Shown: positions 6,411 to 52,970 of the stretch, piece by piece | How the letters are laid out: each line of letters opens with the position of its first letter | Position numbering within the stretch: the first letter of the stretch is position 1 | NCBI RefSeq assembly: GCF_947493875.1 | Contig: NZ_CANLSU010000004.1 | Coordinates: forward strand, 186,001-250,000 | Direction: 5' to 3' | DNA from: an uncultured Marinococcus sp. | GTDB lineage: Bacteria; Bacillota; Bacilli; Bacillales; Marinococcaceae | Length of the DNA: 64,000 bases | Notes under the pieces: generated by a model | The model's input: the letters and a program-made list of their open reading frames with translations, nothing else | What the model was told of the DNA's origin: nothing | The model's database searches: none | Program-made: the position numbers and the translations under genes

Positions 6411-7430
6411 ATGGCACCAGTACAAAATCGGGCTTTTCGGCTTCGTGAACCGAGAAGCTTAGAGAATTTAGAAATGACCGAAGAATCCATGCCGCAGGTG
6501 CAGCGGGGAGAGGTGCTTGTCCGCGTGAAAGCCACTTCCTTAAACTACCGGGACCTCGCTATGATCGAAGGCGGTTATCCGGGAGAGCTGCGGGAAAACC
6601 TCGTGCAGCTTTCAGACGGCGCCGGGGAAATTGTTGAAGCAGGCGAAGATGTACGCCGCTTCCGTGTCGGAGACCGGGTTGCCGGCAACTTCACCCGGGA
6701 ATGGTTCGGCGGCAAGCGTCCTTCCTATATGCAGCCGTATGGCACGCACAGCGACGGGTGGCTGACGGATTATAAAGTAATCAATCCGGAGGAGCTTGTC
6801 CGTCTGCCTGACCATCTTACGTACGAGCAGGGAGCAACGCTTCCATGCGCGGCGGTGACTGCCTGGAACGCTCTGCACGGTCCTTCTCCGGCCGGCCCGG
6901 GAGACACGGTGCTGACGCTTGGCACAGGGGGCGTTTCCGTTTTCGCCGTGCAGCTCGCGAAAATTCTCGGCCTTCGCGTTATCTCCACTACTTCGAGCAG
7001 CTGGAAAGAGGACAAGCTGCAGGAGCTCGGATCTAACGACATCATCAACTACAATGATACACCGGAGTGGGGAAAACGGGCGGAAGAGCTTTCTAACGGC
7101 GGCGTAAACCGAGTCGTTGAAGTGGTCGGTCCTGCTTCGTTTCATCAATCGATTCAAGCAGTCGCCCCCGGCGAGGAGGTAGCTTTAATCGGCGTGCTCA
7201 CAAGAACCGGGGACAAAATCGATTACTACGATCTCTTCGGAAAAGCTTCCACAAGAACGATTGGTGTCGGCAGCCGGGATATGTTCGAATCCATGAACCG
7301 CGCCATCGCTGCCCACCAGCTGACACCGGTGATCGACACGGTCTATCCATTTGAACAGGCCCAGGAGGCTTACCGCCACCTGAAAAGCCAAAACTTCTTC
7401 GGCAAAATTGTTATTTCCCACGGCCAGTAA
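6411..7430 (+). CDS. NAD(P)-dependent zinc-less MDR / quinone oxidoreductase-like alcohol dehydrogenase
   Basis: A 339-residue medium-chain dehydrogenase/reductase. It has the GroES-like N-terminal domain (LNYRDLAMIEGGYPGE near residue 42, GAGEIVEAGEDV) and a Rossmann domain (LGTGGVSVFAVQLAKILG near residue 170). The Cys/His/Cys catalytic-zinc ligands of true alcohol dehydrogenases are absent, as is the four-Cys structural lobe, so it belongs with the quinone-oxidoreductase-like branch. ATG at 6411 follows AAGGAGG. It ends at a strong terminator. The substrate is unknown; an enone or quinone reductase role fits the neighbouring Old Yellow Enzyme. Confidence 0.85.
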   Translation: MAPVQNRAFRLREPRSLENLEMTEESMPQVQRGEVLVRVKATSLNYRDLAMIEGGYPGELRENLVQLSDGAGEIVEAGEDVRRFRVGDRVAGNFTREWFGGKRPSYMQPYGTHSDGWLTDYKVINPEELVRLPDHLTYEQGATLPCAAVTAWNALHGPSPAGPGDTVLTLGTGGVSVFAVQLAKILGLRVISTTSSSWKEDKLQELGSNDIINYNDTPEWGKRAEELSNGGVNRVVEVVGPASFHQSIQAVAPGEEVALIGVLTRTGDKIDYYDLFGKASTRTIGVGSRDMFESMNRAIAAHQLTPVIDTVYPFEQAQEAYRHLKSQNFFGKIVISHGQ

Positions 7431-7436
7431 TAAAAC

Positions 7437-7478
7437 AAGCGGAGCGCTTCTGTTACGCGCTCCGCTTCATTTTTTTCT
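7437..7478 (+). terminator. intrinsic terminator of the MDR gene
   Basis: 11-bp perfect stem (AAGCGGAGCGC with its complement at 7457-7467), 9-base loop, then a T-rich tract. Confidence 0.9.
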
Positions 7479-7510
7479 TCATCCATCCGGAGAGTAAGGA
7501 GAGGATCACG

Positions 7511-8740
7511 TTGACAGACATCACTACCGCTTCCCCGTTTACATTACATAATAAAAATGTGACATTTAAAAACCGCTTCGTTAAATCAGCCATGAGCGAA
7601 GGACTCGCCACAAGGGCTCATCTGCCGGACGCTGACATCTTCCGGCTGTACCATACCTGGGCCAAAGGAGGCGCGGGGTTACTCATTACCGGGAACGTGA
7701 TGATCAACCAGCAGGCGCTTGGGGAGCCGGGCAATGTCGTGCTTGAAAGCGAAAAGCAGCTTAGCCTGTTCCAAGCCTGGGCCCGTGCCGGCACACATAA
7801 TGACACCCATTTATGGATGCAGATCAATCATCCGGGCAAGCAGGTGCCAAAAGGCGTCTCCCGTGAAACCGTCGCCCCCTCTACTGTACCTTTTGAATCA
7901 GGGCTTCAGCGCTTCTTTCCCAACGCCCGGGCGCTAACCCATCCAGAAATAGAAAAAATCATCCGGCAGTTTGCCCATACCGCATCCCTGGCCAGGCGCG
8001 CCGGCTTTACCGGTGTCCAGATTCACGCCGCCCACGGCTATTTAATCAGCCAGTTTCTCTCCCCCCGTCATAATCAGCGCACCGATGAATGGGGTGGTTC
8101 GATTAAAAACCGCTTCCGCTTTTTACGTGAAATTTTTTACGCTGTCCGCGAAGCCGCAGGGCCGGAATTTCCTGTTGGAGTAAAAATTAACAGCGCAGAT
8201 TTTATGAAAGCCGGCTTCTCCGAGGAAGAATCCCAATATGTAATTAAAGAGCTCGAACGCCTTGGAGCCGATATGATTGAAATTTCCGGGGGCACTTACG
8301 AACGCCCGGAATTATTCGGAAAAAATGCTTCTGCTTCTACGCTTCAGCGTGAAGCTTATTTCCTGGAATATGCTGAAAGCCTGAAGCAGACTACAGAAGT
8401 ACCGGTGATTTTAACCGGAGGCTTCCGGACCCGCCCGGCGATGGACAGCGCGCTCCAGTCAGGGGCAGCCGATTTCATTGGTCTGGCAAGACCAATGGCT
8501 GTATACCCGGACTACCCGGCCAGGCTTCTTTCAAAGGCCCCGGTTCCCCGGACTGAACCTGCCAAAACCGGTCTTCCGCTTATTGACAATCTGGGGGTTA
8601 TGGAGCTTGCATGGTACAACCACCAGCTCGCCCGGCTGAGCAAAGGCCGGAAAGCTGCGCCCGGTTTTCCGGCTGTTTTCTCTTTAGGGCTTCTTCTGAT
8701 GAAAAATGGCCTAAACATTATCCGGCAGCGAAGAGGATAA
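7511..8740 (+). CDS. NADH:flavin oxidoreductase, Old Yellow Enzyme family
   Basis: A 409-residue FMN-dependent ene-reductase of the TIM-barrel OYE family. Landmarks are the N-terminal phosphate region (NRFVKSAMSEGLA), the QINHPGKQVPKG strand, the active-site stretch GVQIHAAHGYLISQFLSPRHNQR with paired histidines near residue 175, and the C-terminal FMN phosphate loop (ILTGGFRTRPAMDSAL, ADFIGLARPM). Translation starts at TTG 7511, with AAGGAGAGG about 6 bases upstream; no ATG gives an intact N-terminus. It follows the MDR gene on the same strand after a terminator, so it has its own promoter. It converges on the SDR gene with only 11 bases between stops. Confidence 0.9.
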   Translation: MTDITTASPFTLHNKNVTFKNRFVKSAMSEGLATRAHLPDADIFRLYHTWAKGGAGLLITGNVMINQQALGEPGNVVLESEKQLSLFQAWARAGTHNDTHLWMQINHPGKQVPKGVSRETVAPSTVPFESGLQRFFPNARALTHPEIEKIIRQFAHTASLARRAGFTGVQIHAAHGYLISQFLSPRHNQRTDEWGGSIKNRFRFLREIFYAVREAAGPEFPVGVKINSADFMKAGFSEEESQYVIKELERLGADMIEISGGTYERPELFGKNASASTLQREAYFLEYAESLKQTTEVPVILTGGFRTRPAMDSALQSGAADFIGLARPMAVYPDYPARLLSKAPVPRTEPAKTGLPLIDNLGVMELAWYNHQLARLSKGRKAAPGFPAVFSLGLLLMKNGLNIIRQRRG

Positions 8741-47072: not shown

Positions 47073-47354
47073 TTGGAAATTACAAACGGTGCTAAAGCAG
47101 TACTAGAACCGCTGATGGAAGAAAACAACATGGACCACCTTCGCGTGGCAGTTGAAGAAATGGAAGAATCCTCCCAGATCGGTCTTGTTCTTCAGGATCC
47201 GCAGGAAGACGATCAGGTGGTAGAAGCAAACGGCATTAAAGTAGCAGTGGACAACCGCGTTACAGATTTAATGCAGGATGTTACGCTCGACACGCAGGAA
47301 AACGAAGACGGCGAAACACAGCTCGTCATGGCCGGCCTTCCTGAAACTGAATAA
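47073..47354 (+). CDS. HesB/IscA-like fold protein lacking cysteines
   Basis: 93 residues, TTG start with AAGGAGG 8 bases upstream. Architecture follows the HesB/IscA family (MEITNGAKAVLEPLMEENNM, then two-strand pairs VVEANGIKVAVDN), but none of the family's three conserved cysteines is present and in fact the protein has no Cys at all. It therefore cannot assemble Fe-S clusters in the IscA way. Very acidic. Such Cys-less relatives occur in Bacillaceae with unknown function. It is monocistronic with a strong terminator. Confidence 0.75.
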   Translation: MEITNGAKAVLEPLMEENNMDHLRVAVEEMEESSQIGLVLQDPQEDDQVVEANGIKVAVDNRVTDLMQDVTLDTQENEDGETQLVMAGLPETE

Positions 47355-47430: not shown

Positions 47431-47444
47431 GCCGAAATTTCGGC
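47431..47444. promoter_or_regulatory. perfect palindrome, candidate upstream activator site for the sigma-54 promoter
   Basis: GCCGAAATTTCGGC, 14 bp, about 90-103 bases upstream of the predicted transcription start of adhP. That is the usual range for enhancer sites of NtrC-type activators, and such an activator is encoded 1.1 kb away. Binding is inferred, not shown. Confidence 0.6.
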
Positions 47445-47489
47445 TTGCCGTTTTAATTTTTTATAACCTCTCCCTTCTATACCAGCTTT

Positions 47490-47504
47490 TGGGTGCGCTT
47501 ACAT
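47490..47504 (-). promoter_or_regulatory. CcpA cre site upstream of adhP
   Basis: Reverse strand ATGTAAGCGCACCCA matches every fixed position of WTGNAANCGNWNNCW. It ends 3 bases before the -24 element of the adhP promoter, so bound CcpA could block sigma-54 holoenzyme or activator contact. Confidence 0.6.
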
Positions 47505-47507
47505 TTT

Positions 47508-47523
47508 TGGCACGCTTCTTGCA
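47508..47523 (+). promoter_or_regulatory. sigma-54 (-24/-12) promoter of adhP
   Basis: TGGCACG-CTTC-TTGCA: an exact match to the sigma-54 consensus, with GG and GC 12 bases apart. The transcript would begin near 47534, 34 bases before the adhP ATG. Confidence 0.88.
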
Positions 47524-47567
47524 TATACATAGAGTGCAGCCTGCAAAAATACAAGGAGGGTTCACTC

Positions 47568-48584
47568 ATGAAAGCAGCAGTGGTTAATGAATTTCATCAA
47601 AAACTGGAGATTAAAGATATCCCGGTACCCGAGCTTGATTATGGAGAAGTGCTTGTCAAAATTCATTCATGCGGAGTCTGCCACACCGATTTGCACGCGG
47701 TCCACGGCGACTGGCCGGTTAAACCAAAGCTTCCTCTCGTTCCGGGACACGAGGGCGTAGGTACAGTAGAAAAGGTGGCGGACGGCGTCAAATCCATTAA
47801 AGTCGGAGACCGCGTCGGCATTCCGTGGCTCTACTCTGCCTGCGGAGAATGCGAATTCTGCCTCTCTGGAAGAGAAACGCTCTGCCAACAGCAGTTGAAT
47901 GCCGGCTATTCCGTAGACGGCGCCTATGCGGAATACTGCAAAGCTCCCTCCCACTATGTGACGAAAATTCCGGACAGCCTGGACTTTGACACAGTAGCTC
48001 CACTTTTCTGTGCAGGCGTGACAACGTACAAGGCACTCAAAGTATCCGAAGCCAAACCGGGTGACTGGGTCGCAATTTTTGGCATCGGCGGACTCGGACA
48101 CGTTGCCGTACAGTATGCAAAAGCCATGGCCTTAAACGTGGTGGCTGTCGACATACGGGACGACAAGCTGGAGCTTGCGAAGGAAATGGGAGCAGACATG
48201 ACGATCAACAGCATGAACGAGGACCCCGGCAAGGTTTTGATGGAAAAATTAAACGGCGTAGAAGCCGCCATCAGCGTGGCCGTTAGTCCGAAAGCGTTTG
48301 AACAGGCCTACTCCACTGTTAAACGGGGTGGAAATTTAGTTATTGTGGGGCTTCCTGTCGGTGATCTTCCGATTCCAATCTTTGATACGGTGTTGAACGC
48401 GGTAAACGTAAAAGGCTCCATTGTCGGTACACGCAAAGACCTGCAGGAATGTCTCGAGCTCGCGGCTAACGGCAGGATTCGTCCGATTATTGAAATGAAG
48501 GAATTGGATGATATTAACGACGTATTTGACTCGATGGAAAAAGGCGATATCAACGGCAGGATTGTACTCAAAATCCAGGATTAG
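47568..48584 (+). CDS. adhP: zinc-dependent alcohol dehydrogenase AdhP
   Basis: NAD-dependent oxidation of primary alcohols such as ethanol to aldehydes, reversible. The 338-residue protein has catalytic zinc ligands Cys38 (CGVCHTD) and His61-Glu62 (GHEGVG), structural zinc cysteines 92, 95, 98 and 106 (CGECEFC...C), and the Rossmann loop [16 protein letters not shown] near residue 178. ATG 47568 follows AAGGAGG. Its promoter is a consensus sigma-54 element with a palindromic upstream site and a cre. It converges with the gene of a sigma-54 activator, which is the obvious candidate regulator. Confidence 0.95.
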
Positions 48585-48618
48585 ATTCCCGGTAAATTTA
48601 CGAAACGCTTACACAAAG

Positions 48619-48655
48619 CAAAACCCGGACGGGCTCCTCTTCCCGCCGGGTTTTG
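48619..48655. terminator. bidirectional intrinsic terminator
   Basis: CAAAACCCGG-A-CGGG pairs with CCCG-C-CGGGTTTTG across an 8-base loop; T or A tracts on both sides. Lies between convergent adhP and the sigma-54 activator gene. Confidence 0.88.
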
Positions 48656-48674
48656 TTGATGATTCTGCCGGAAT

Positions 48675-50054
48675 TTATTCATTCAGCCAGTAGCGCAGCT
48701 TTCTCGTATTAACCCCTAGCATTTCTGCTGCCTCCCTGCGATTTCCACGTGTGAGCATTAAGGCGTGGTCGATAATATCCTGAACGCTTTTCTTTTCTTC
48801 ACTCCGTATAGCTTCAACGGTGCTTTCAAGCGACAAATATTTTGTCTCTTCAAGCTCCTGTTTTTTCTCTATAAGCCAATCCCCGGACACAATTCGATTC
48901 CTGGCGGCAGTCTTGCGGCTTGATGGCCTCATGTTTAAATGGCGGCGTTCAATCCTTCCGTCTGATTCCGCGGCTGCCCGGACCAGCACGTTTGTAAGCT
49001 CCCGGATATTGCCCGGCCAGTGGTGAGTCTGTAACACATCCAAAGCTTCCGGACTGATCGTTGTGATTTCCGGAGCTTCTTTGCGAAGAATCGACTGGGC
49101 CACCGCGGGGATATCTTCCTTTCGTTCCCGCAGGGGCGGAATAGTCAGCCGTACGACCTCAAGCCGGTACAGCAGGTCCTCCCGAAATTCCCCTGCTTCT
49201 GCAGCAAGGTGCAGGTCCTGGTTTGTGGCAGCAATGATACGGGCTTTTGTTGTAATCGGACGTTCACTACCCACCCGGTAAAGCTCTCTCGTTTCGAGCA
49301 CCCGCAGCAGCTTCACCTGGGTTGAAAGTGAAGCTTCTCCAATTTCATCGAGCAAGAGCGTTCCTTCCGAGGCCAGTTCAAAATACCCCCTCCTCGTTTT
49401 ATGCGCTCCGGTAAACGCCCCTGCTTCATGGCCGAACAACTCACTTTCGAGCATCTGCTCCGGCAGCGCTCCGCAGTTCACACCTAGAAATGAGCGCTCC
49501 TCCGGCCCGGCAAGCTCATGAATGAAGCGGGCGGCTACCTCTTTTCCAGTGCCAGTCTCTCCGTCGATTAAAATCGTTAACGGCTTTGGTGCAAAGCGCG
49601 CAGCCAGTCGGACGACTTCTTTCATTGCTTCGCTTTCTCCAGTTATCAAGCCGCTTCTTGCAGCTGCCTGTTCAATGTGGTCTAAAGCCTCCCGGCCCAG
49701 CCGCGGCTGCTGTATTTTCTCTTCAATAATGCTGATGTCTTCAAAAGGTTTTTCAATATAGTCCTCCGCCCCAAGCTTAACTGCTTCTACAGCTGTATCA
49801 ATCGTGCTGTATCCTGTCATAATAATACAGCGGCAGGAGGGCTGCGCCTGCTTCAAGTCTGCGAGCAGCTTCAACCCATTCGTGTCAGGAAGCTTTAAGT
49901 CGATAAATGCCAGTTCATACAAATGGTTCCGGCTGCGAAGGCGTTCATATTCCTTCCCGTCATGGGCAAGATCAATATGATGGCCCTGTTCTACAAGCAG
50001 ATAGCGAAAAAATGTGCCAATATCATAGTCATCGTCAATGACCAATATCTTCAT
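48675..50054 (-). CDS. NtrC-type sigma-54-dependent response regulator
   Basis: A 459-residue activator with the full three-domain plan. The receiver (1-115) has the acidic pocket DDD at 7-9, phospho-acceptor Asp52 (FIDLKLPD) and Lys102 (EKPF). The AAA+ domain (~135-370) has Walker A GETGTGKE at 165-172, the sigma-54-contact loop GAFTGA at 212-217 and Walker B LLLDEIGEA. A Fis-type HTH closes the protein (RGNRREAAEMLGVNTRKLRY). The frame is open to 50072; ATG 50054 has GGAGGGG upstream and starts at the receiver. It overlaps the kinase gene by 20 bases. Its targets probably include the adhP promoter. Confidence 0.94.
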   Translation of the reverse strand: MKILVIDDDYDIGTFFRYLLVEQGHHIDLAHDGKEYERLRSRNHLYELAFIDLKLPDTNGLKLLADLKQAQPSCRCIIMTGYSTIDTAVEAVKLGAEDYIEKPFEDISIIEEKIQQPRLGREALDHIEQAAARSGLITGESEAMKEVVRLAARFAPKPLTILIDGETGTGKEVAARFIHELAGPEERSFLGVNCGALPEQMLESELFGHEAGAFTGAHKTRRGYFELASEGTLLLDEIGEASLSTQVKLLRVLETRELYRVGSERPITTKARIIAATNQDLHLAAEAGEFREDLLYRLEVVRLTIPPLRERKEDIPAVAQSILRKEAPEITTISPEALDVLQTHHWPGNIRELTNVLVRAAAESDGRIERRHLNMRPSSRKTAARNRIVSGDWLIEKKQELEETKYLSLESTVEAIRSEEKKSVQDIIDHALMLTRGNRREAAEMLGVNTRKLRYWLNE

Positions 50055-51714
50055 ACTCGTCCCCTCCTCCATGAACCGGCAGCTTCAATTGAAAGGCACT
50101 TCCTTTTCCCTCTTCGCTTGCAAATGTCAGCCGGCCGCCATTTTTCTCTGCAATATCTTTACTTACCGACAGACCCAGCCCGGTCCCATTCTGTTTTCTT
50201 TTTGTAGTGAAAAAAGGTTCAAACACTGACGGCTTCTGACTCTGGGCAATACCGCACCCGTTGTCTTCGACCTCAAGCACAACGTTTGAATGAACAATAT
50301 TGGTTTTAATTTGAATCTTTTTATCTGTCTCTCCGCTGTCCTTTAACGCATCTTTTGCATTCAGGAGCAGGTTGATAATCACCTGACCGACCTGATGCGG
50401 TCCTGCTTTGACGAGCGGCAGACCGAATGTGTAATGCTTTTCAATCAGAATATTCTCTTTTTCGATTTGAAAACCAACCAGGCTCAGCACATCTTCGACT
50501 GCTTCATTAACGTTACATTCCGTGCTCTCTTCTTTTTCGGGACGGGAGAAAGAAAGCAGGTTTTGCACTATCGTCCGGCAGCGGCGGCCCCCTCTTTCAA
50601 TCGCCGCCGCAAGCTCCCTTGGAGGCCCCTCCTCTGTCAGACTCCGCTGTAGTATCTGGGTGTTACCGATCACCGCGGTCAGCGGACTATTTAATTCATG
50701 CGCCACTCCGGCCGCCATTTCCCCTATCGCCGCGAGCTTTCCGGAATGCTGAAGCTGGGCTTCAGTTTTGATCCGCGCCGTTACATCCTTAATATAAATA
50801 AGCAGTCCTTTCATCTCTCCATCACCGTCCCGGACTGGGTACGTCTGAATATCGCACACACGGCCGTTTTTTAACGTCATTTGGTAGTTTTTCATCGTCT
50901 CACCGTGATAGCTTTCTTCAATTGGACAGAATGCCTCCGTATCGTGAAACAACAGATCATGACAACGCCGGCCGGCCACCGCCTCCGGAGGTTCGTTAAA
51001 AAAGCTGTAGGAGGCCTGGTTGCAGCGAACGATCCGGTGATCGTTATCGGTTAATATCAGGAGGTCCGCTACGGCCTGAAAGGTTTCCTCCCATTCCTTT
51101 TTGCCCTGGTATACCTCCTGGTACAGCCTCGCGTTCTCCATCATGAGGGCAATATGGTCTGAAAGCTGCCGGAAGAAGCTGATATCAGACTGGTCACACT
51201 CGATCCGTTCAGTTGCGGCAAAGGTGAGAACACCGATGGTCGACGCTTTTATCCGAAGCGGTATGACACACACATAGTGAAAATTCAAAGCCGAAAGCGT
51301 CTGCTCCTCCACAAACTCATACGTGTCAGCAGGTTCCCACTCATGAAGAACAATCATGTTCTGTTCGATTGCTTTCCAGTACAACGACTCTTTTTTCGGG
51401 AGATGCATACCGACTGCGGAATCCTCTGCGTAGAGAGGATAGACACTGTTTAATGACATTGCTCCCTGCTCGATTAACGATAAGCTTACCCGGTCGATCG
51501 GATAAAGTTCATAAATAGTTTCAAGAATATGCTGCAGCGACGTTTCCATCGTTCCTGTAACCTGAAACCCCTTTGCCACTTCGCTTAAAATTTCAAGCTT
51601 CCGGTTCTTTTTTTCAAGCTCCGCAATTGTTGCTTTCAAGTCTGTATAATAGCTTTTTTTCGAGGCACGGACCCCGGTTAATTTTTCAATCACCATTTCC
51701 TTTTCTGTAAACAT
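50035..51714 (-). CDS. soluble sensor histidine kinase (GAF-PAS-HisKA-HATPase)
   Basis: A 559-residue kinase with no TM helix, so it senses a cytoplasmic signal. Order: coiled N-terminus (~15-50), GAF domain (~55-195), PAS domain (~205-320), HisKA with the H-box GEMAAGVAHELNSPLTAVIG near residue 345, and HATPase with NLLLNAKDALKD, DNGCGI and GTGLGLSVS. The PAS holds a Cys pattern, GRRCHDLLFHDTEAFCPIE, as seen in PAS domains of redox or ligand-sensing kinases. It lies 12 bases downstream of the Fe alcohol dehydrogenase gene and overlaps the response regulator gene, so the three form one operon. An alcohol, aldehyde or redox signal is inferred. Confidence 0.93.
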   Translation of the reverse strand: MFTEKEMVIEKLTGVRASKKSYYTDLKATIAELEKKNRKLEILSEVAKGFQVTGTMETSLQHILETIYELYPIDRVSLSLIEQGAMSLNSVYPLYAEDSAVGMHLPKKESLYWKAIEQNMIVLHEWEPADTYEFVEEQTLSALNFHYVCVIPLRIKASTIGVLTFAATERIECDQSDISFFRQLSDHIALMMENARLYQEVYQGKKEWEETFQAVADLLILTDNDHRIVRCNQASYSFFNEPPEAVAGRRCHDLLFHDTEAFCPIEESYHGETMKNYQMTLKNGRVCDIQTYPVRDGDGEMKGLLIYIKDVTARIKTEAQLQHSGKLAAIGEMAAGVAHELNSPLTAVIGNTQILQRSLTEEGPPRELAAAIERGGRRCRTIVQNLLSFSRPEKEESTECNVNEAVEDVLSLVGFQIEKENILIEKHYTFGLPLVKAGPHQVGQVIINLLLNAKDALKDSGETDKKIQIKTNIVHSNVVLEVEDNGCGIAQSQKPSVFEPFFTTKRKQNGTGLGLSVSKDIAEKNGGRLTFASEEGKGSAFQLKLPVHGGGDEYEDIGH

Positions 51715-51726
51715 ACAGACGCTCCT

Positions 51727-52872
51727 TTATTCGTAAGCCTTTTTGAACAGCATTTCGATATCCTTCAGAGCTACATCCCGGGGGTTGGTGATCATACATG
51801 CATCTTCAAGGGCAATGCGGGCCATGTTTTCAAAATCAGGATCTCTCAGTCCGACAGAGCGCAGCGTCTTTGAGGCACCAATATCATCTGCAAGAGCCCG
51901 GACGGCCTGAATACCGTGTCTGGCACGAACCATTTCCTCCCCGTCCGCAGAAGCGCCGAAAATATCGCCGATAGCCGCAAAGCGGGGAGGGGAAGCAATT
52001 AGATTAAATTCCATGACATGCGGAAGCAAAATGCTGTTAATTTCTCCGTGCGCAAGAGCATAGCGTCCGCCGATCGCGTGAGACATCGCGTGTACCGCTC
52101 CTAAAATGGCATTGGAAAACGCAAGTCCCGCCTGCATGCTTGCCATCGCCATCGCACGCTTGGCTTCCACATTTGTGTGCGATGCCACCGACGGCCGCAG
52201 AAATTCAGCCGCCAGCTTCATCGCATTAACCGCATGCACATCCGTCAGCGGCGTCGCTGCTGCACTTACATACGCTTCTATGCCATGTGTAATCGCATCA
52301 AGTCCGGTAGCTGCTGTAAGCAAATGGTCTTTGGTCATTAATACGAACGGGTCGACAATCGCAATATCCGGCACGAGCGATTTAGAAACGATCGTCATCT
52401 TCTTTTTCCGTTCCGGATCCACAATAATGGAAAATTGTGAGACTTCAGACCCCGATCCCGCCGTTGTCGGTACCATAATGACCGGGGGAAGTGGACTGTG
52501 GATATGGTCTACTCCTTCGTAATCTTCGATTCTTCCGCCGTTACTCACAATCACAGCCACCGCTTTCGCCACATCCAGCGCACTTCCTCCTCCAATACCT
52601 AGCACAGCGTCACACCGGGCTTTATGATAAGCCTCTACCCCTTCTACTACCTGGGCTGTGTCAGGGTTTGTACTGATATTTGAGAAGAGGTGATAATCAA
52701 GGCCGGAAGCTTGTATGCTTTCTACAGCCTGGATGGTCCAGCCGGCTTCTTTAACGCCCGGATCACTTACTACCAGTACACGCTGTGCTCCCAGTCGTAA
52801 AAAGCTCTCGCCCGTCTGCTGAATCGAATGATCCCCGAAAATGATTTCGGGAGCCATAAATTTTGAAATCAT
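51727..52872 (-). CDS. iron-containing alcohol dehydrogenase (group III)
   Basis: A 381-residue Fe-dependent alcohol dehydrogenase. NAD-binding GIGGGSALDVAKAVAVI is near residue 97, and the metal-binding signature is split between HGIEAYVSAAATPLTDV (~200) and AVHAMSHAIGGRYALAHGEIN with the His ligands (~265). Related enzymes act on ethanol, butanol, 1,3-propanediol or methanol. ATG at 52872 follows GGTGAGG. It heads the operon with the histidine kinase and the sigma-54 activator, an arrangement that ties alcohol oxidation to its own sensor. A cre lies between promoter and start. Confidence 0.94.
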   Translation of the reverse strand: MISKFMAPEIIFGDHSIQQTGESFLRLGAQRVLVVSDPGVKEAGWTIQAVESIQASGLDYHLFSNISTNPDTAQVVEGVEAYHKARCDAVLGIGGGSALDVAKAVAVIVSNGGRIEDYEGVDHIHSPLPPVIMVPTTAGSGSEVSQFSIIVDPERKKKMTIVSKSLVPDIAIVDPFVLMTKDHLLTAATGLDAITHGIEAYVSAAATPLTDVHAVNAMKLAAEFLRPSVASHTNVEAKRAMAMASMQAGLAFSNAILGAVHAMSHAIGGRYALAHGEINSILLPHVMEFNLIASPPRFAAIGDIFGASADGEEMVRARHGIQAVRALADDIGASKTLRSVGLRDPDFENMARIALEDACMITNPRDVALKDIEMLFKKAYE

Positions 52873-52914
52873 ATCCTCACCACCGTCGTATTTAATTGGA
52901 AGCTTTTTATGCGA

Positions 52915-52929
52915 TTGAAAACGTTTACT
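52915..52929 (+). promoter_or_regulatory. CcpA cre site in the Fe-ADH operon leader
   Basis: TTGAAAACGTTTACT matches all fixed positions of WTGNAANCGNWNNCW. It covers about +6 to +20 of the predicted transcript, a classical position for CcpA repression or roadblock. Confidence 0.7.
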
Positions 52930-52941
52930 TTACATGTAATT

Positions 52942-52970
52942 ATTATCTCTCACCCTCGTTTAATGTGCAA
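52942..52970 (-). promoter_or_regulatory. putative sigma-A promoter of the Fe-ADH-kinase-regulator operon
   Basis: Reverse strand TTGCAC, 17-base spacer, GATAAT (5 of 6). No -24/-12 element is present here, so the regulators themselves seem to be sigma-A expressed. Confidence 0.5.

Follow-up and report, generated by a model that had tools for sequence, protein, structure and literature searches.

A 64-kb stretch of a 3.27-Mb Marinococcus genome (the window; all coordinates are positions in it) carries a zinc alcohol dehydrogenase gene, adhP, that faces an operon for an iron alcohol dehydrogenase (Fe-ADH), a histidine kinase and an NtrC-type regulator. We propose that the kinase senses by way of the Fe-ADH and, with the regulator, activates a sigma-54 promoter upstream of adhP; judging from sequence comparisons, we put the probability of this mechanism as a whole at roughly 0.7. 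What is observed is the gene order, the promoter, a palindrome and how these are conserved together, along with the way the Fe-ADH groups and the link between a kinase motif and Fe-ADH genes; phosphotransfer, DNA binding, alcohol as the signal and docking are inferred.

In this model, the Fe-ADH, which is ErcA-like, would bind or oxidize alcohol, the likely one being ethanol or some other short primary alcohol, and would dock on the N-terminal motif of the kinase. Kinase activity would then change, either with the state of the complex or because the GAF and PAS domains read aldehyde or NADH that is produced on the spot. The kinase would phosphorylate the NtrC-type regulator. The regulator would bind the palindrome, which lies 69 bp ahead of the -24 element, and from there would activate sigma-54 polymerase at adhP. 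AdhP would then oxidize the alcohol, in several relatives together with an aldehyde dehydrogenase.

A trio of genes conserved with a promoter and a palindrome

The product of adhP (47568-48584, plus strand, ATG at 47568) has Pfam ADH_N and ADH_zinc_N domains and scores 414.9 bits against the NCBIfam AdhP model NF006940 (cut-off 344). Convergent to it on the minus strand lie the genes for the Fe-ADH (51727-52872), the kinase (50035-51714) and the regulator (48675-50072), with reading frames that overlap or nearly touch. Pfam finds GAF, PAS, HisKA and HATPase domains in the kinase, and in the regulator a receiver (PF00072), an AAA+ domain (PF00158), which contains GAFTGA, and a Fis helix-turn-helix (PF02954). 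The regulator thus has the features of an NtrC-type sigma-54 response regulator; against the model for NtrC proper (TIGR01818) it scores 369.4 bits, under the cut-off of 558.6. It is 93% identical in M. halotolerans and 92% in M. luteus. No membrane domain was found in the kinase by the Pfam scan, which is not a dedicated membrane prediction, and the kinase family profile matches a solved GAF chain (3o5y_A, 186 bits).

The predicted promoter, TGGCACGCTTCTTGCA (47508-47523, plus strand), is an exact sigma-54 consensus, with the -24 GG, the -12 GC and the consensus spacing, and it is kept in orthologues. Nothing else in the window matches TGGCACN5TTGCW exactly; with up to two mismatches there are 30 matches vs a shuffle mean of 33, so that only the exact match is informative. 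Genome-wide, the pattern has 14 sites vs 10 for the backward pattern. A lone match was therefore rejected as evidence, and the case is built on conservation rather than on the match itself. The 14-bp palindrome GCCGAAATTTCGGC (47431-47444, no strand), likewise noted in the first pass, is the sole exact copy in the genome and is predicted to be the response-regulator binding site (upstream activating sequence, UAS); targets in relatives have the same motif upstream, and in sister genomes its center lies 69-70 bp before the -24 element.

With the trio defined as Fe-ADH, kinase and NtrC-type regulator, and kinase relatives called at E <1e-100, 26 of 150 genomes have it, our own included (in G135 the Fe-ADH plus kinase start are on a separate contig). 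A -24/-12 promoter stands before AdhP or a second Fe-ADH in 24 of the 26, with one mismatch in L151 and at a remote adhP in G066 and G105. L140 is without a target promoter, its AdhP start being odd and near a contig end, and L158, cut by a contig end, is not assessable. L140 apart, adhP-type relatives have the promoter 39-91 bp ahead of the start codon of adhP. Upstream of the target promoters we found a common palindrome, TGCCGAAAWTTCGGCA. Of 25 such regions, 19 (including L056, L058 and L059) reach a score of at least 10 of 12, as do 1.6% of 4915 control segments drawn from these loci. A second, weaker copy is often present at a distance of about 20-22 bp. The co-occurrence that had been set beforehand as a check is thus present, and promoter, palindrome and trio go together across the class, which supports the reading of the cluster as an alcohol-oxidation unit under sigma-54 that has a two-component system to itself. 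The unit had also been called self-contained, which holds for the promoter, the targets and the two-component system and fails for the sigma factor, since the single rpoN copy in the genome is located away from the cluster.

Across the 150 genomes, matches to the combined UAS and promoter pattern numbered 16, spread over 15 genomes; 12 stand before AdhP or a second Fe-ADH (the remaining four, not at such genes, were not inspected), and the backward pattern gave four. In G066 and G105 the pattern led to an operon of adhP and an aldehyde dehydrogenase gene, 13-14 kb past the trio. AdhP itself was identified in at least 21 of the 26 genomes with the trio (in the window, close to the trio in 18 and far from it in two; a lower bound, five genomes with a second Fe-ADH target not being covered genome-wide). 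Of the 124 genomes without the trio, 51 were screened, and five have AdhP (G003, G027, G051, G057 and G060), a difference with p = 7e-10. These associations suggest that adhP is probably switched on through its sigma-54 promoter by the neighboring kinase and activator.

The first-pass annotation had considered the arrangement unusual in bacilli, which is not supported. Of 398 genomes sampled from the class, 58 have the kinase at E <=1e-90; it is full-length in 17 and has a shortened sensor part in 41. An Fe-ADH adjoins it in all 34 that were inspected (all 17 full-length and 17 short), one copy being broken. That copy, in L230, matched as two overlapping pieces (7300-8438) beside kinase and regulator, so that either a frameshift or an error in sequencing interrupts it. 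An NtrC-type regulator is present in 17/17 full-length loci and in 15/15 short-kinase loci fetched as larger regions. A second score group, kinases matched only at about 305-554, was first taken as unrelated, and 13 of them served as a control; since 13 of 13 adjoin an Fe-ADH and carry the N-terminal motif in a kinase of shorter length, they were counted as family members. None of the remaining controls, four other kinase loci and 74 NtrC-type loci, has such an Fe-ADH in the stretch examined.

Several observations weigh against this regulatory picture. The UAS consensus was derived from the same upstream regions that gave 19/25, for which reason genomes fetched later are the fairer test; there, in a set partly kin to earlier genomes (L226 to L059; L221 and L222 to L146 and L147; L228 to L229), the score is at least 10 in 7/9 and at least 9 in 8/9. 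The target promoter is present in 8/9 of these, and L231 has the trio yet no recognized target promoter. In the short-kinase set the UAS is weaker than in the other sets (at least 10 in 7/15, at least 9 in 11/15); a promoter stands upstream of the target in 14/15, at greater distance from adhP in L311 and L312, and L302 has AdhP without one. Finally, M. halophilus (L056, 6742-8392; G003, which is L236) has kept regulator, adhP, UAS and promoter and has lost Fe-ADH and kinase. Its regulator is 82% identical to that of the window, vs 92-93% in the sisters, with the receiver conserved at 91.7% and the AAA+ domain diverged to 78.8%.

Two further uses of the palindrome were set aside. Autoregulation of the operon was rejected, as among 36 Fe-ADH upstream regions (short-kinase set left out) the UAS reached 10 only in six with a divergent target. 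The helical phasing of UAS positions has a best period of 11 bp, which we do not use because the period was picked post hoc and on related sequences.

The operon Fe-ADH and the kinase N-terminal motif

The best NCBIfam model for the operon Fe-ADH is ErcA (NF041833), described there as an alcohol-dehydrogenase-like regulatory protein. In a midpoint-rooted tree of 54 chosen rows (L249, matched in pieces, and most later loci left out), a branch with 100/99 support splits 41 rows, among them the window Fe-ADH, from 13 target or free Fe-ADHs. The 41 comprise two Rhodococcus proteins and 39 linked to a kinase or motif, 26 from Bacilli trios and 13 from the Nitratidesulfovibrio-phylum scan, Desulfamplus, Acetoanaerobium and Actinomycetota. 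Residues including K4, E9, W45, S145, Q146, T180 and S245 are nearly fixed in the linked Fe-ADHs and different in nearly all others. The two Rhodococcus genes, on plasmids (L240 and L242), are followed by a response regulator gene, with no annotated kinase and with transposase genes nearby. The initial idea of a single kinase shared by a pair of alcohol dehydrogenases is not supported by this grouping, in which the operon enzyme sits with kinase-linked ErcA-like proteins and apart from catabolic Fe-ADHs; it is more likely that the operon Fe-ADH is part of the sensor and adhP the output.

Ahead of the GAF domain, kinase residues 9-27 (51634-51690, minus strand) form a motif, IEKLTGVRASKKSYYTDLK, with many invariant alignment columns, and the Pfam scan matched no family to these residues. 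The motif is common to kinases beside ErcA-like Fe-ADHs in Acetoanaerobium, Nitratidesulfovibrio, Desulfamplus, Tsukamurella and Mycobacterium chubuense, the last two being of HisKA_3 type. Its form is LTGVxSSKKSYYTELK-like in Bacilli and IGLGxxSxRKSYYPEL-like elsewhere.

A motif profile of 48 positions and 16 rows, none from Pseudomonadota, was run alone on whole genomes; the search is blind to adjacency, though every row came from an Fe-ADH-linked protein. Three scans together gave 64 matches, 54 of which were inspected, and 50 of these adjoin an ErcA-like Fe-ADH. All ten matches in the Paraburkholderia phylum (398 genomes) do so. The Nitratidesulfovibrio phylum (148 genomes) yielded 14, ten of them directly downstream of an ErcA-like Fe-ADH, including all eight at E <=5.1e-4 (one of which is a profile row); there is no Fe-ADH beside the other four (L254 and L256-L258), which have 13-19 aligned residues and E >0.001. 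In our own order (299 genomes), 40 genomes have one match each, many orthologous to profile rows, and the 30 inspected all adjoin an Fe-ADH; the ten others include two very short frames (G1108 and G1204). In the plasmid collection, matches from Acinetobacter, Thioclava and Cupriavidus were discarded, as these were Fe-ADHs without the motif in the stretch examined.

The proteins that carry the motif are otherwise unlike. Ten were scanned, some cut at the end of the available stretch: eight are kinases (three hybrid, two HisKA_3), one is a PAS-GGDEF protein (L248) and one a PAS-GGDEF-EAL protein (L261), so that the motif precedes HisKA, hybrid and HisKA_3 kinases as well as one GGDEF and one GGDEF-EAL protein. 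The last two, also beside ErcA-like Fe-ADHs, suggest alcohol control of cyclic di-GMP; we found no description of a link between ErcA or Fe-ADHs and diguanylate cyclases among the open-licence papers listed. Because Fe-ADH and motif are constant while sensor and output domains vary, we read the motif as a candidate docking site. We lean toward the view that ErcA-type Fe-ADHs are a portable alcohol-sensing subunit that docks, through a motif of about 20 residues, on otherwise unlike signaling proteins in at least four phyla, the window holding a sigma-54-wired Bacilli version in which the output enzyme has been exchanged. In the AlphaFold2 model of the kinase N-terminus, a turn connects a short helix to a long one.

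The most serious alternative, which we nevertheless consider unlikely, is that the Fe-ADH is merely a catabolic enzyme in a regulator operon and that the kinase itself senses alcohol or aldehyde through GAF and PAS. The window Fe-ADH retains D192, H196, H261 and H275, which we take to be the metal ligands, and may therefore be an ordinary enzyme; residues of what are presumably the metal and NAD sites are invariant in the Fe-ADH alignment. It scores 471.8 bits against ErcA, short of the cut-off of 550 (four relatives reach 474-496), and the first 20 residues of the kinase are of low confidence in AlphaFold2 (predicted local distance difference test, pLDDT, about 53), which also count against the sensor reading. 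MSMEG_6239 of the mno operon has been described as a putative propanediol dehydrogenase (PMC11303327). On the other side, the operon Fe-ADH is constant while targets change in the loci examined, the tree separates it from target and free Fe-ADHs, and the kinase motif tracks Fe-ADH presence despite differing sensor and output domains; in Pseudomonas, loss of yiaY is reported to repress the ped cluster (PMC12997753). The operon Fe-ADH is thus probably an alcohol sensor, part of the sensing apparatus of the kinase rather than a co-regulated enzyme.

We find it a shade more doubtful that redox, oxygen or energy state is what the kinase detects with PAS and GAF, alcohol oxidation being one output among several. 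The GAF and PAS domains have no assigned ligand, and a candidate cre site (catabolite repression; 52916-52929, no strand, 10/11 positions of what we presume to be the consensus) upstream of the Fe-ADH operon suggests carbon control. Such sites score at least 10 in 8 of 36 Fe-ADH upstream regions vs 3.4% of controls, a weak enrichment, with three of the eight from Marinococcus. The placement of 12 of the 16 UAS and promoter matches at alcohol dehydrogenase genes, with four matches for the backward pattern, argues against this reading. That another sigma-54 activator drives adhP, and the neighboring regulator acts elsewhere, is very improbable: although the genome encodes five further proteins with a full sigma-54 interaction domain (three with GAFTGA) and the adhP of the trio-less G027 has a promoter without a UAS, UAS and promoter co-occur with the trio even when adhP is 13-14 kb away, and three other trio-less AdhP genes (G051, G057 and G060, the last in two frames) have neither. 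The cluster regulator is the only one of the six such proteins (four with GAFTGA) to have a receiver domain, in keeping with the earlier remark that bacillar sigma-54 activators are mostly one-component.

Output genes and neighboring features

In L141-L145 the target is a second Fe-ADH, 40-42% identical to the window's operon Fe-ADH and YiaY-type by best model (NF007363; the three that were scored fall under its cut-off). A tree was built from 34 kinases (L135, L158, L231 and the short kinases left out). On it the target label, AdhP or second Fe-ADH, requires three changes, two of which are forced by well-supported branches; the output enzyme is therefore exchangeable, and the operon Fe-ADH is constant in the loci examined. 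An aldehyde dehydrogenase is present in 10 of 29 loci, mostly adjoining the target, and the one tested is an ExaC-type acetaldehyde dehydrogenase (966 bits, cut-off 900).

A CMD-family protein accompanies the target alcohol dehydrogenase in L141, L143, L145, L156 and L227-L229; that of L141 matches the peroxidase-like NCBIfam model TIGR04169 at 148 bits. Beyond the second Fe-ADH in L058, L059 and L226 lies a further sigma-54 activator (PAS-AAA-Fis without a receiver in L058), so this target may have two activators. In the window, an inverted repeat read by eye between the convergent gene ends (48619-48655, no strand) is a probable shared terminator. Just upstream of adhP, a small HesB/IscA-like open reading frame with a TTG start (47073-47354) is conserved in three Marinococcus genomes, its Fe-S_biosyn score slightly under the cut-off.

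Relation to known alcohol-responsive systems

One close parallel is the ErcA-ErcS (YiaY-PP_2683) pair of Pseudomonas, where an Fe-ADH gene is co-cistronic with a sensor kinase that controls alcohol oxidation and where there is genetic evidence for a regulatory Fe-ADH (PMC12997753). Loss of yiaY (ercA) or of the kinase gene PP_2683 is reported to repress the ped cluster and alcohol-oxidation genes (PMC12997753, PMC7427536), and a structural model places the contact at both N-terminal domains (PMC12997753, PMC7427536, PMC10308882). As described in a 2026 review, it is open whether that kinase senses alcohol itself or by redox coupling with YiaY (PMC12997753). By its published description, the Pseudomonas system differs from ours in that a hybrid kinase acts through AgmR on pyrroloquinoline quinone (PQQ)-dependent dehydrogenases, and the accounts available describe no NtrC/sigma-54 output of its own. 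We suggest that the window system is probably a widespread, sigma-54-wired form of this ErcA-type enzyme-kinase pair, of which the shared docking motif would be the newest aspect.

A second parallel is MnoSR of Mycobacterium smegmatis, encoded in the same operon as MSMEG_6239, which we take to be an Fe-ADH. The N-terminal motif is present in the Fe-ADH-linked kinases of its relatives in Tsukamurella and M. chubuense; these are HisKA_3 kinases, from which the type of MnoS is judged, whereas the window kinase is HisKA, and the Tsukamurella regulator looks NarL-like by eye. Poor growth of MnoSR mutants is reported for both ethanol and 1,3-propanediol. As in the window, a putative dehydrogenase, a kinase and a regulator are found with an alcohol dehydrogenase, with a single upstream palindrome (PMC11303327).

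Sigma-54 control of alcohol dehydrogenases was already known for clostridial AdhR (PMC7017808, PMC6615313), and a 2025 survey places class IV alcohol dehydrogenases among the sigma-54 genes of Bacilli and Clostridia (PMC12316311). AdhR-SigL of Clostridium beijerinckii, like our system, pairs a sigma-54 activator and UAS sites with alcohol dehydrogenase genes in Bacillota (PMC7017808). It differs in being a one-component GAF-PAS activator with TGT/ACA-type UAS, serving alcohol synthesis (PMC6615313), and the descriptions consulted give no kinase or Fe-ADH partner; the window regulator, in contrast, has a receiver and no GAF or PAS match and does not belong to the AdhR regulon type. No description of a Bacilli two-component version was found in the open-licence literature searched.

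Our analysis unites three literatures, those on ErcA/YiaY, on MnoSR and on sigma-54 control of alcohol dehydrogenases, and the motif together with the group-specific Fe-ADH residues makes the question of sensing in Pseudomonas directly testable. The motif and Fe-ADH findings point to a modular, enzyme-based alcohol sensor. If this is true, some genes annotated as alcohol dehydrogenases would be sensor subunits.

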